A DNA stretch of 39,035 nt, taken from the NCBI GenBank assembly GCA_013002995.1, contig JABDLO010000224.1:1-39035 (forward strand), read 5' to 3'. The position numbers and the translations under genes were made by a program. The notes beneath the pieces are model-generated. The model ran no database searches, had not been told where the DNA came from, and saw nothing but the letters and a program-made list of their open reading frames with translations. Positions 26,702-32,616 of this stretch are shown one piece after another; position 1 is the stretch's first letter; each line of letters starts with the position of its first letter. The stretch is from Saprospiraceae bacterium. Its GTDB lineage: Bacteria; Bacteroidota; Bacteroidia; Chitinophagales; Saprospiraceae.

Positions 26702-26804
26702 ATTCTAAAATACTGCATCTACCTCTAAATAATTCCATTTTAAGAGAATGGTAACACATGATTTTGCATTTATTTTTTCATCGAGAAAAATCTGAGCTTT
26801 CTCC

Positions 26805-26812
26805 TATCTTTG
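26805..26812 (+). promoter_or_regulatory. Bacteroidota -7 promoter element (TATCTTTG)
   Basis: This is an exact TAnnTTTG match identical to the rpoD promoter core, 20 bases before the ATG at 26833. The leader would be about 14 bases, too short for a riboswitch. No clear -33 TTG lies at 19-21 bases upstream. Confidence 0.55.
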
Positions 26813-26832
26813 ACATTCCAAAAAATATTGAA

Positions 26833-28029
26833 ATGAGTAAGCAAAAATTGGGATTAGGATCCATCTGTGTGAAGGAAGCAAAAGAAAACAAATCCACCAA
26901 ACCACATCAACTCCCGTTGTATGCTACTTCTTCATTTGCATTTGACAAGATCGAAGACAGCATAGATATTTTTACCGGCAAGAAAACCGGACATGTATAT
27001 TCCAGGTACGGAAATCCTACCGTTGACACAGTTGCACAAAAGTTGGCAACTTTAGAGTCTTATGGAACGGACAAGGATGCTTATGCTTTTCTTACCAGTT
27101 CCGGAATGTCGGCCATTTCAAGTGTAGGGATGGCTATCCTCTCTCATGGAGATAAGATCCTGACTCAAGGCAATCTTTACGGTGGTACTACAGAGTTATT
27201 TAAAAAGCTATTTTCCAATATGGGCGTCGAAACCATCTTCACCGATCTTAATGACCTGGAAGGTGTAGAATCTATTCTTGCTGAAGACGAAAGCATTAAG
27301 ATGGTATATTTTGAAACACCTGCCAATCCAACACTGGCTTGTGTTAACCTCCGGGCTTTAAGTGACCTCGCCAGGAAATATAATGCTACGTCGGTAATTG
27401 ACAATACCTTCCCCACTCCATACCTTCAGCAGCCTTTCAAGTACGATATTGACTTTGTTATTCACTCTACAACCAAATTTTTGAATGGCCATGGTAATTC
27501 CATCGCAGGAGTTGTTATCGGATGGCAAGAATCTATGAAGAAAAAAGTCTGGGAAGTCATCAAACTTGCAGGCACCAATTGTAATCCCTGGGACGCCTGG
27601 TTGATTAACAACGGACTCAAAACATTGGCAGTGAGAATGGAAAGACATTGTGACAATGCAATGAAACTGGCTTCATTTCTGGAAAGTCATCCTTCGGTAA
27701 ACTATGTCAATTACATAGGATTAGAATCTCATCCACATCATGATCTGGCCTCGAGTCAGATGAGCGGTTATGGTGGAATGTTGAGTTTTGAAATGAAGGG
27801 AGGCATGGAAAAAGCACTACAATGCATAAATAGCCTGAAACTTGCCACAATGGCTCCTACCCTGGGGGATGTGGATACATTGGTGTTACATCCCGCAACC
27901 AGTTCTCATCTCAATGTGGATAGAGCAATGCGTGAAGCCAACGGTATCACCGATGGTCTAATCAGGGTTTCTGTAGGAATCGAGGACATCAATGACATCA
28001 TTGCTGACTTTGATCAAGCAATGACTTAA
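26833..28029 (+). CDS. Cys/Met-metabolism PLP-dependent lyase (methionine gamma-lyase/cystathionine gamma-synthase type)
   Basis: From the ATG at 26833 this is a 398-residue fold-type I PLP enzyme. SRYGNPTVDTVAQKLATLE (57-75), the PLP-phosphate-binding SSGMSAISSV (89-98), FETPANPTL (160-168) and the Schiff-base lysine in VIHSTTKFLNGHG (Lys215) are family signatures. Methionine gamma-lyase, cystathionine gamma-synthase and O-acetylhomoserine sulfhydrylase share them, so the reaction is not fixed by sequence. The local order HLNVDRAMREANGITDGLIRVSVG is the usual C-terminal substrate region. The longer frame from 26758 starts upstream of the promoter element and is unlikely. A decayed copy of its last ~50 codons lies at 31530-31678. 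Confidence 0.9.
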   Translation: MSKQKLGLGSICVKEAKENKSTKPHQLPLYATSSFAFDKIEDSIDIFTGKKTGHVYSRYGNPTVDTVAQKLATLESYGTDKDAYAFLTSSGMSAISSVGMAILSHGDKILTQGNLYGGTTELFKKLFSNMGVETIFTDLNDLEGVESILAEDESIKMVYFETPANPTLACVNLRALSDLARKYNATSVIDNTFPTPYLQQPFKYDIDFVIHSTTKFLNGHGNSIAGVVIGWQESMKKKVWEVIKLAGTNCNPWDAWLINNGLKTLAVRMERHCDNAMKLASFLESHPSVNYVNYIGLESHPHHDLASSQMSGYGGMLSFEMKGGMEKALQCINSLKLATMAPTLGDVDTLVLHPATSSHLNVDRAMREANGITDGLIRVSVGIEDINDIIADFDQAMT

Positions 28030-28116: not shown

Positions 28117-31017
28117 TTATTTTTTGTTAAAAATATAAACGCTACCATAATTTTGAAAAACCCCACCGTTATCAAAATCTGGGGAGCCAACAGCAACAGT
28201 ATTTTCATAAATGGTTACACTTGTGCCGAAATGATCCAGTGTCTTACCATTAGAAGGTCTGATATGGATAGTTCCATGATTATAGAAGATATATGCCGAT
28301 CCTAATTCAAACTCTCCATCCAGAGTAGCGTATTTTTCCCCCACTACAATTCCCTTGTTACCAATATCGACACTATTACCAAATTGCACCCCTGTTTGTG
28401 GGTCCAGTGAATTGATTTTATCTGTTTGAGCCCAACCCAATGAATTTCCAAATGTGTAGGCCGCTCCTGATTCAACTGTTGTACCGACTGTGTTCAAGGG
28501 AGATCCAACAATTACGCTTTCATTATAAATCGCAACGCTTGTTCCAAATTGATCTCCCGGATTCCCATCAGCAGCAATAATACGAGCTTGTTGTGACCAT
28601 GTGGATCCATTATAAAAAAATATATATGCTGATCCAGCATCTACTTTTGTATCAAAATCATCTTTTGGTGAACCAACGACTATAAAATTATCATAAATGG
28701 CCACACAATGACCAAAATTATCTTCAGCTTCCCCATCACTTGCTGTCAGGATTGCAAAATGGTTCCAGGTGCTTCCATTGAAATGATATACATAAGCAAC
28801 ACCTTGTTCTGTAGCTGTCAAAACATCCTTTTTAGGGCATCCAACAACTGCGAAGTTACCATAGATCGCAACAGAAGATCCATAAGAATCATCAGTTTCG
28901 CCGTCTATCGCTGTTAACTTTATGCTTTCGTCCCAACCTGAGCTTTGATTCTTGAATATATATGCAGCTCCCTGGTCATCATTAGTAGAAATATCTGCAC
29001 CAGGTGACCCAACAATGGCAACATCACCATAAACATCTACACTAGAACCGAAACGATCAAAAGCAGCAAGATCCGCAGGCAACAACACGTTTCCAAAAGA
29101 CCACGTACTTCCCAGGTTCTCCTTCACAAAAGCTGATCCCGCACTTGCCATACCAGAAAATTCACGATTTGGCGCACCTATTATCATAAATTCTCCCTGT
29201 ATAGAAACATCCTCACCGTAGTTTGATCCAAAATCGTTAAAATACAATCTTTCATTTTCACTCATTGATGGACTATATGGGGTTCCCCATGTATCTGAGT
29301 ATGACCTGGTAAACGATAGCCAGACAGAACCATTATATCCTTCAAATTCTTTAGTTTCTTCATTGTAACGGACTGCTCCCGGCAAAGGTGCATCTTCATC
29401 ATCTCCAAGTTTGAGCTTTCCATTGACTTCAAGTGTCGAACCAGGAGAATCTGTTCCAATTCCTATATACCCGTTTTTCAATATTGTGATAGCATTACGG
29501 CGATTAAACATTGATGTACCATTTCCCACAGAAAACAATCTATCCATTTCATTCCATCCAGTTGTATTTAATGGGGAATATTCTGAATTGTAAGATCCTA
29601 TGACTGTTTCATAAGCTGAAGGAGCAGAAGTTCCCAAACCTATTGCTGTGGATACTAATCCCGAGGCTCTCGTATTCTCACCAAAGGCGAAGGAAATATT
29701 TCCAATATATTCAGGGGACCAATCTTCTGAGCTGGTTAATCTTCCTCCACGGAAAGCCATTTTTTGAATATCAACAAACATTAAGTCACCATTGAATAAT
29801 TCCAGAGGATCTGGTTTATCATCCAAACCAATTAAGAAATCTCCATCGCCCACGAATGTCTTTCCGGAAAAATAACCGGCAAAACCTACAGATCCTGCAT
29901 TGGTGCCATACACTCCATAATTTAAATGGTCAGTTCCTAACCCAATGCCATAGACTCCATACCCATTTTCTCCAGAGGTGGCCCCATAGACACCATGGCC
30001 TAATTGTGATGCAGACTCAAACCTTCCGCCTGAGGCAAATGCAAAACCAGTTTTAGTAGCGGCACCGTATACTGCTGCTCCATCTTCTCCCGCCGATTCA
30101 AAATATCCACCATAATTAGAAACACCATATTCATTGTTGGTAGCAGAACCGTATATTGCCCTACCATTGGGCTTATCATTATAAATTGTAACGGTCCAAT
30201 CAGTTGCTCCGTCTCCATTGATGCTTAATTGAGATTGGGGAGTGTCCGTTCCCAAACCAATCTCTCCACCCTTCAACATAGTCAAAGCATTGGAAGGTGT
30301 TATAACTGATCCATTTCCTATAGAAAAAAGACGATCAGAATCATTCCATCCCGTATTCGTTACAGGTGAATATCGTGAATTAAATCTACCAATGGCTGTT
30401 TCATATCCTGAAGAAGTTATAATCCCTCGCCCCAATGCAACTGAATAGTCTCCATTTGCAAAACTTGAATTTCCCAAGGCTATTGAATTTTCTCCTTGTG
30501 CATTCACCGTATTACCATAAGCAAAAGAACCAATCCCAATTAAATCAGGTGACCAATCACTTGAATTCGTCATCATTCCACCCCTGAAAGCACCTACTTC
30601 CTGGTTAAAAAAGAAAAGCGTGTCCCACAATAACTCTCCGGTTTCAGGTAATGAAGACTTACCAAAAATAAAGTTTGTTGCATTTATATCAGAAACCTGT
30701 CTTACCAAATTCCCACTTTGTTCAAATGCCCCATTGATTGTACTTAAGTTTATCCAGTATGCACCATTAAAGTAGTAAAACAAATTGTCAGAGCTCTGAT
30801 AGATTATCAAACCCGTTGCAGGTGTTCCAATACCATTAACCAAAGCAGTATCAGAACGAGGCATTAGAAATCCACGATCTACTGAGAAGACTTCTAGTGC
30901 TGCACTTTCATCCGGATCTGTAGTATTGATACCGACACTTTGAGCTGACAGCTCAATGGAAGTAATTATTAATAACAGGCCAATTAAAATTACAAAGGGA
31001 GTGTGATTCTTCATCAT
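28117..31017 (-). CDS. Secreted chimeric repeat protein: YadA-like head modules plus seven FG-GAP blades
   Basis: This 966-residue exported protein has a signal peptide ending SIELSAQ at about 26. The opening SVGINTTDPDESAALEVFS is typical of Bacteroidota tail-fibre-like surface proteins. Residues 141-265 and 418-535 are two copies of one module: FRGG, SSDWSPDLIG, then GENSIALGNSSFANGDYSVALG head-type hepta/tetradecapeptide repeats, TGWNDSDRLFSIGNG and a GTDTP closing. Between them lies a VYG/YGVYG-rich stretch (285-385). Residues about 596-966 hold seven FG-GAP-like units starting near 596, 655, 711, 767, 823, 878 and 929, each with FGxSVxIYGNxxxVGSP and GSAYIF, enough for one seven-bladed propeller. 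No S74 chaperone or type IX C-terminal domain is seen. A surface or adhesion role is inferred. Confidence 0.8.
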   Translation of the reverse strand: MMKNHTPFVILIGLLLIITSIELSAQSVGINTTDPDESAALEVFSVDRGFLMPRSDTALVNGIGTPATGLIIYQSSDNLFYYFNGAYWINLSTINGAFEQSGNLVRQVSDINATNFIFGKSSLPETGELLWDTLFFFNQEVGAFRGGMMTNSSDWSPDLIGIGSFAYGNTVNAQGENSIALGNSSFANGDYSVALGRGIITSSGYETAIGRFNSRYSPVTNTGWNDSDRLFSIGNGSVITPSNALTMLKGGEIGLGTDTPQSQLSINGDGATDWTVTIYNDKPNGRAIYGSATNNEYGVSNYGGYFESAGEDGAAVYGAATKTGFAFASGGRFESASQLGHGVYGATSGENGYGVYGIGLGTDHLNYGVYGTNAGSVGFAGYFSGKTFVGDGDFLIGLDDKPDPLELFNGDLMFVDIQKMAFRGGRLTSSEDWSPEYIGNISFAFGENTRASGLVSTAIGLGTSAPSAYETVIGSYNSEYSPLNTTGWNEMDRLFSVGNGTSMFNRRNAITILKNGYIGIGTDSPGSTLEVNGKLKLGDDEDAPLPGAVRYNEETKEFEGYNGSVWLSFTRSYSDTWGTPYSPSMSENERLYFNDFGSNYGEDVSIQGEFMIIGAPNREFSGMASAGSAFVKENLGSTWSFGNVLLPADLAAFDRFGSSVDVYGDVAIVGSPGADISTNDDQGAAYIFKNQSSGWDESIKLTAIDGETDDSYGSSVAIYGNFAVVGCPKKDVLTATEQGVAYVYHFNGSTWNHFAILTASDGEAEDNFGHCVAIYDNFIVVGSPKDDFDTKVDAGSAYIFFYNGSTWSQQARIIAADGNPGDQFGTSVAIYNESVIVGSPLNTVGTTVESGAAYTFGNSLGWAQTDKINSLDPQTGVQFGNSVDIGNKGIVVGEKYATLDGEFELGSAYIFYNHGTIHIRPSNGKTLDHFGTSVTIYENTVAVGSPDFDNGGVFQNYGSVYIFNKK

Positions 31018-31529: not shown

Positions 31530-31678
31530 CCATTGGTTACTGTAAATTCCATCTCAATGAGGCTAAGAACTTATGTGAGGTCAATGGTATATATTATGGA
31601 TTAATCAATGTATCCGTAGGAATCGAAGACATCATTGACATCATCGCCGACATTGATCAGGCACTAGGATCTCTTTAA
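31530..31678 (+). pseudogene. C-terminal remnant of a Cys/Met PLP-dependent enzyme
   Basis: The plus frame ending at TAA 31676-31678 reads EVNGIYYGLINVSVGIEDI, then IDIIADIDQALGSL. This matches the C-terminus of the intact enzyme at 26833-28029 (EANGITDGLIRVSVGIEDI, then NDIIADFDQA) almost residue for residue, and many differences are silent at the DNA level (for example GTAGGAATCGA is shared). Homology extends upstream through CATCTCAATG and CATTGGT but fades near 31530, with small deletions. The rest of the gene is missing. It is therefore a decayed paralogue or duplicate of the gene 3.6 kb to the left, separated from it by the inverted 966-residue gene. Confidence 0.8.
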
Positions 31679-31796: not shown

Positions 31797-32616
31797 TTAG
31801 ATAGTAGCTGTGATAATTTTTCTATTCCTATAACCCCACTTCATTGCACAAACCGATACAATAAATAATAACAAGGTCATTGTGATTAACCCCCATTCTG
31901 ATAAGGTTGGAATGGCAGCTCCTATCACAAATGTTACATTATCGTAGTATACTCCAGTTGGGGCATATTGAGTGGATGCAGCTAGAAATTCAAATTGCAA
32001 AATGTAACCTTCCCACGCCCCATCAATTGTACCCGTAATGCTTGATCCTTCAGTCCACATATTATCATTGGCAGTGTTAAAAGTATTAAAGTGAACTAAA
32101 GCTAATGTGTTAGGATCCACCACCTTTACGCATACTGCAGTTTCTTTGAAATTAGGGTCCGTTGGATTGGGGGCAAATTGTGGTAGAGCTGTAACATGAT
32201 CAAAGGTAAAACTGTAAAACCTCCCTATATCTGCAGCAGTGAGTATACGCTCCTGGAATACATTCGCTTCTACAAAATTCCCAAATATATGTTCTGGATT
32301 GTTATAATCACTGTATACATTTAGATATTGAGCACCACCATTAGGACCGGGAATAACATTATCCAAACTTGAAAATCCAGGGCCTCCATTGGGAGCCGGG
32401 AATGGACCATAACCCCCTAAGTATCCTCCCCCCTGAATCAAATAAATTACCAAACACCAACCATCCACTACCACTCAATGCTGCTCCATCTCCAAAAGTC
32501 AATGATTCGAAATTTTCGGTGTAGCTTATTTGAGAATGAACTGAATTGGAAAAGCTTAAAAAGAATATTGAAGCTATAATAAAGTTTTATTTCAACAAGA
32601 AATTGATTGTTTTCAT
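31797..32616 (-). pseudogene. Secreted IPTL-CTERM protein with a nonsense codon and a frameshift
   Basis: The gene starts at the ATG at 32616 (MKTINFLLK) and codon 10 is TAA (32587-32589). The same frame then continues with a hydrophobic signal core (FIIASIFFLSFSNSVHSQ) and a mature part (ISYTENFESLTFGDGAALS). At a run of six G (32428-32433 on the complement) the frame must slip by one base to continue as GGGYLGGYGPFPAPNGG and onward to the end. The C-terminus carries an IPTL-CTERM sorting tag: IPTLSEWGL, a hydrophobic helix and a basic end (KWGYRNRK). The intact form would have been a secreted, membrane-sorted protein of about 270 residues with a lectin-like beta-sandwich (inferred). An open piece at 31797-32474 alone lacks a signal peptide. 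Confidence 0.8.

Follow-up and report, generated by a model that had tools for sequence, protein, structure and literature searches.

The putative fibre gene and its surroundings

We analysed a window (the whole stretch of DNA examined here) of 39,035 nucleotides from a Saprospiraceae bacterium, in which a minus-strand ORF with an ATG start encodes a mosaic protein of 966 amino acids, referred to below as the fibre protein. Its parts are listed in Table 1. Four of them, namely the Q-type signal peptide, the conserved N-terminal module (NMOD), the G-rich middle stretch and the LINK module, were absent from an earlier sequence-only reading, which had described duplicated heads joined to a propeller. 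The Q-rule for the signal peptide cut follows two published papers (PMC5837995, PMC10653852).

Table 1. Parts of the fibre protein, with positions in the window
Feature	Residues	Position	Strand	Basis
Whole ORF, putative mosaic fibre protein	1-966	28117..31017	-	ORF reading
Signal peptide, predicted cut between ELSA and QSVGIN (Q-rule type)	1-25	30943..31017	-	By eye from sequence
NMOD, conserved N-terminal module, 15 copies in genome	26-98	30724..30942	-	Profile search
Head module A, YadA-type coils and DRLF-IGNG cap	139-272	30202..30603	-	Pfam YadA_head; AF2 model, fold match
Middle G-rich stretch, GVYG-like motifs	273-413	29779..30201	-	Sequence
Head module B, one 14-residue coil less than A	414-540	29398..29778	-	Alignment with A
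LINK module, overlaps end of head B	533-573	29299..29421	-	HMM
Short tether, low model confidence	574-584	29266..29298	-	AF2 model
Predicted seven-bladed FG-GAP_2 propeller, forms protein C-terminus	585-966	28120..29265	-	Pfam, profile search, AF2, fold comparison
FG-GAP_2 unit 1		29125..29226	-	Whole-genome profile search
FG-GAP_2 unit 2		28954..29103	-	Whole-genome profile search
FG-GAP_2 unit 3		28786..28935	-	Whole-genome profile search
FG-GAP_2 unit 4		28618..28767	-	Whole-genome profile search
FG-GAP_2 unit 5		28450..28599	-	Whole-genome profile search
FG-GAP_2 unit 6		28285..28434	-	Whole-genome profile search
FG-GAP_2 unit 7		28129..28266	-	Whole-genome profile search

Ten other ORFs of the window were scanned against Pfam, and all matches were of cellular or unknown type, with no phage structural gene among them. 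The neighbours include a Cys/Met PLP enzyme, an outer-membrane beta-barrel protein, a pseudouridine synthase and a LuxC-type reductase, and further genes of DUF3472, arginine deiminase, CHAT and Omp85 type. The fibre gene has a G+C content of 0.40, and the window as a whole one of 0.37. When the full protein was searched against the PDB with phmmer, nothing significant was returned (best E 0.41), and a PHROGs search gave two weak matches, both to families of unknown function. An HMM of the GVYG stretch had no match in any other ORF of the searched set.

The predicted C-terminal propeller

The C-terminal part of the protein matches the Pfam family FG-GAP_2 (PF14312) in 7 stretches (E 7e-78, 257 bits where the cut-off is 23). 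FG/YG anchors lie at residues 600, 656, 712, 768, 824, 879 and 930, seven in all, with spacings of 51-56 residues. A profile search of the whole genome recovered the same seven units, of which unit 1 is the weakest (24.8 bits, the cut-off being 23, with the first 15 profile positions missing), and the chain ends one residue past the last unit. Both searches thus bear out the count of exactly seven made in the sequence-only reading. No tandem DNA repeat was detected in the window by TRF, so the units have drifted apart in their DNA; chance repeats were ruled out by the Pfam scores and by the alignment of the two heads described below.

The propeller of the integrin alpha subunit also has seven blades. 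AlphaFold2, given 34 aligned viral propellers as input, produced a model of the region with 28 strands, a pLDDT of 90.5 and a pTM of 0.90. In a Foldseek comparison of this model with the PDB, the best 50 matches listed were all integrin alpha propellers (best E 3.3e-17), and VIA-align placed model residues 24-407 on residues 1-431 of the integrin chain 3v4v_C, in order and over the full domain, with a Z of 41.3 and an rmsd of 2.7 over 348 residues at about 17% identity. The number of repeats, the predicted structure and the fold comparison all agree with the earlier proposal of blades closing as in integrins, and we are confident in the predicted closed seven-bladed propeller at the C-terminus. 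We infer that, again as in integrins, the last blade is completed by the first strand (585-592).

DxDxDG calcium motifs in the blades are an integrin feature. A search for DxDxDG and DxDG, a check that the sequence-only reading had named, found neither motif anywhere in the 966 residues. Calcium-binding blades were rejected on this ground and, by this feature, the propeller has an integrin-like fold without being an integrin relative. The two also differ in placement, in that the integrin propeller forms the N-terminus of the alpha chain, whereas the propeller described here forms the C-terminus of a bacterial protein.

Seven is the rule for the FG-GAP_2 repeat. We counted units in two sets of complete ORFs. 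One comprised 43 ORFs with three or more units, taken from genomes of the order and from L001 (the fibre ORF included), and the other 46 distinct ORFs of viral contigs; exact duplicates alone were removed, and ORFs running off a locus were excluded. Seven units were found in 27 of the 43 genome ORFs and 14 units in one, while the remaining 15 had other counts, mostly five or six, where the profile may miss weak units. Among the viral ORFs, 32 had 7 units, six had 14, one had 21 and seven had other counts. Multiples of seven (7, 14 or 21) thus account for 28/43 genome ORFs, which were chosen by resemblance to the fibre protein and supplied the HMMs themselves, and for 39/46 viral ORFs. The counts of 14 or 21 on the viral contigs L219, L174 and L193 would give two or three consecutive propellers.

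The head modules and probable trimerisation

Pfam YadA_head matches a single stretch of the protein, residues 173-198 in copy A (E 2.9e-10, 40.7 bits against a cut-off of 25). Copy B, which gave no Pfam match, was recognised by its 50% identity to A (E 9e-42), and this alignment bears out the duplication of a YadA-like head claimed earlier. The gap between the copies consists of one residue and one block of 14, the length of one YadA-type coil.

The AlphaFold2 model of head A is of moderate quality (pLDDT 81.2, pTM 0.73). Its Foldseek matches were weak (best E 0.15, none at E <= 0.001), and the top three were heads of trimeric autotransporters. The first entries in the VIA comparison were BoaA (Z 10.6), BpaC (10.5), EibD (9.9), AtaA (9.8), UspA1 (9.5) and CbpF (8.8), and all matches better than the grass ice-binding beta-roll 3ult, which follows just below the bacterial adhesin heads at Z 8.7, were adhesin heads of the trimeric kind. 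We have fair confidence that head A, as modelled, has the beta-roll fold of trimeric adhesin heads; given the score of 3ult, the head fold alone is no proof of a trimer.

Collagen is a trimeric stalk, and it is one of several trimer-associated domains that stand beside the same modules in other proteins: Peptidase_S74 occurs with the head module (HEAD) in L048 and L050 of the same genome, TNF with HEAD in L237, and Collagen with LINK in L149. Together with the fold matches, these neighbours support the assumption of the sequence-only reading that the heads are of a trimeric kind, and they make it likely that the fibre protein trimerises.

The NMOD and LINK family

The genome has 15 copies of NMOD, four of them in ORFs cut by contig ends. 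It is combined with a Peptidase_S74 C-terminus in L054, in one of the two L057 ORFs and in L060; with an unusual tip of eight Kazal stretches in L056 (1789-3786, plus strand); and with a seven-unit propeller in the fibre ORF and in L046, which follows the same plan with another class of G-rich repeat replacing the YadA heads. The C-terminal tips, whether S74, Kazal or propeller, are swappable among the NMOD paralogues. HEAD was also found ahead of Peptidase_S74 where no NMOD was detected, in L048, L050 and the second L057 ORF, two of these ORFs being cut at the 5' end.

LINK is likewise combined in several ways. A short paralogue, L049, has LINK and the propeller with almost no stalk, and LINK is present in L055, L145 and L149 where propeller units were not detected. 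In the L149 ORF (1180-3234, plus strand), from a related genome, collagen repeats are followed by the LINK module. The ORF at L147 (2471-5020, minus strand) carries five HEAD matches and LINK, then a second set of repeats and a C-terminal tip, and no propeller units were found in it.

The propeller itself is used in two designs. All seven of the seven-unit genome ORFs with LINK or NMOD end no more than 15 residues past the last unit, whereas 18 of the 20 without these modules continue for 85-743 residues, so that the propeller is C-terminal in the one design and N-terminal with a long extension in the other. In nine further LINK/NMOD ORFs, between three and six units were detected, with tails of 0-194 residues. 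The C-terminal design was found in 27 of 32 viral seven-unit ORFs.

A YadA head and FG-GAP_2 units in one ORF were seen only in the fibre ORF, among 43 genome ORFs and 46 viral ORFs, none of the latter having a HEAD match above the threshold of 20 bits (L232 has an 11-bit match). A query consisting of head B, LINK and blades 1-2 was searched at class level against 395 genomes (matches listed to E <= 1e-12); no match spanned all three parts except the fibre ORF itself, and the partial matches covered the head, or LINK and blades, or blades. Matches on plasmids came from 17 records, none covering 80% of the query. The parts and general plan of the fibre protein recur widely, and the pairing of head and propeller was seen only here among the ORFs examined.

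Propellers in viruses

Searches of BFVD identified the same propeller in a cyanophage S-TIM5 protein annotated as virion structural and in collagen-named proteins of Mimivirus LCMiAC01 (E 9.5e-25 and 2.2e-31), and viral proteins also carry HEAD and LINK modules. The sequence-only reading had called a head-and-propeller trimer an unusual adhesin. Within the sets examined, that description stands for the pairing, but C-terminal propellers are frequent on viral proteins and a giant virus has collagen-named propeller proteins, so that a fibre with a propeller tip is less exotic than it had seemed.

We built a tree of 66 propellers (7 of NMOD/LINK type, 25 other cellular and 34 viral), from which equal-length rows more than 95% alike had been dropped. 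The fibre protein was not placed in it, as no starred set contains its row and its branch length is 2.4; by path, the nearest rows are viral. Grouping the NMOD/LINK rows needs 5 changes, and several long branches meet, including that of the fibre protein with L080.

Export signals

An NCBIfam scan at E <= 1 found no sorting tail (TIGR04183, TIGR04131) in the fibre ORF, consistent with the earlier remark that no known export tail is visible at the C-terminus. Trimeric autotransporter adhesins (YadA, BoaA, UspA1) share the head coils and the fold with the fibre protein, but the latter has a propeller and, in a Pfam scan at E <= 1, no C-terminal membrane anchor, its C-terminus being the last blade; a type Vc autotransporter was rejected for this reason. 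No surface anchor, outer-membrane export signal or ligand site was identified in the protein.

The same genome encodes SprA and contains 133 matches to type A tails; SprA, type IX tails and Q-type signal peptides point to Bacteroidota. By eye, none of the tail matches falls in the ORFs at the 15 NMOD places, although four of these ORFs are cut by contig ends. In relatives, type IX tails (A or B) were found in four of five N-terminal-propeller proteins tested (L068, L070, L071, L080) and in none of three LINK/NMOD propeller proteins.

A proposed fibre and its alternatives

We propose, with a probability of roughly 0.6, that the protein is a Sec-exported and probably trimeric mosaic fibre with integrin-like propeller tips that are exchangeable among paralogues. 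Trimerisation, surface display, the role of NMOD, the export route and ligand binding are what we infer for it, as follows. The protein would be exported via Sec, and NMOD, then at the mature N-terminus, probably holds or assembles the fibre on the cell surface. Next, YadA-type heads and the G-rich modules related to them would form a trimerising stalk, followed in each chain by LINK, a short flexible tether and one closed integrin-type propeller, so that a trimer would present three propellers at its far end as a multivalent binding tip. Because the propeller is one of several exchangeable C-termini in the genome, the fibre set may work like phage tail fibres or like the mosaic adhesive trimer (MAT) fibres of Bdellovibrio bacteriovorus.

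As described in the MAT report (PMC10769870), those fibres have a signal peptide, a conserved domain directly after it, a stalk and diversified C-terminal tips, and they occur as many paralogues per genome, in S74 and non-S74 classes and with TNF tips. The fibre protein, with NMOD directly behind its signal peptide, has the same arrangement, and its family likewise has one conserved and one diversified end, with TNF beside HEAD in L237. The likeness is one of arrangement: the MAT N-domain has about 130 residues and NMOD about 73, and MAT stalks are trimeric beta-prisms or beta-helices where the fibre protein has YadA-type heads. In the MAT report, the terms propeller, YadA and Bacteroid- have 0 occurrences. 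A fuller version of the proposal extends it to bacteria of this group: NMOD would display MAT-like trimers without type IX tails, their swappable tips would include integrin-like propellers in threes, and passage through the outer membrane would follow a route not yet recognised. We hold this version tentatively and consider it on the doubtful side.

The protein could instead be a monomer, periplasmic or secreted, in which single-chain beta-roll heads carry a generic protein-binding propeller. The match of head A to 3ult would fit such a protein, as would the nearly stalkless L049 and the failure of the Pfam and NCBIfam scans to find a surface anchor or sorting tail; we nevertheless think it unlikely, since HEAD occurs in one chain with Peptidase_S74 or TNF, and LINK with Collagen, and since only adhesin heads of trimeric kind score above 3ult. 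Even less probable is a type IX cargo whose signal escapes recognition. SprA and many type A tails are present in the genome, and N-terminal-propeller proteins of relatives mostly carry tails, but the fibre chain stops one residue past its last unit, the LINK/NMOD relatives tested have none, and none of the 133 tail places falls, by eye, in an ORF with NMOD (four being contig-cut).

The propeller, HEAD and LINK are all found on viral proteins, mostly with the propeller at the C-terminus and in S-TIM5 on a protein annotated as virion structural, and the nearest tree rows by path are viral. These observations would suit a tail fibre of a prophage, tailocin or injection device, or a phage fibre that the cell has domesticated. 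The ten other window ORFs scanned, however, include no phage structural gene, a signal peptide was recognised by eye, and no starred tree set holds the long fibre branch, so that we give this origin very little weight.

In the literature searched, we found nothing joining FG-GAP, YadA and Bacteroidetes, nothing joining FG-GAP, trimeric autotransporter and propeller, and nothing joining FG-GAP, tail fiber and phage. Judged by title and the start of the abstract, papers naming FG-GAP and YadA included none on this subject, and none treated viral collagen and propeller proteins. This combination of parts, and the surface route of such a fibre, appear little studied. If our proposal is true, a cell-encoded fibre bears the ligand-binding seven-bladed propeller of integrins, three per fibre, within a fibre set that has swappable tips and no recognised outer-membrane route. 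It then becomes testable whether NMOD serves as an anchor or in export, and whether, as in tail fibres, the tips determine binding specificity.

Two minor features lie near the fibre gene. A 115-column stretch at 31550-31663 aligns at 76% identity (E 4e-17) with the 3' terminus of the gene for the Cys/Met PLP enzyme (26758-28029); it lies on the far side of the fibre gene and is the relic of a partial duplication flanking that gene. At 31797-32474, on the minus strand, lies what looks like a decaying gene, an ORF with an IPTL-CTERM motif (E 3.6e-07) whose 5' part, as judged by eye, is broken by an early stop and an upstream change of frame.
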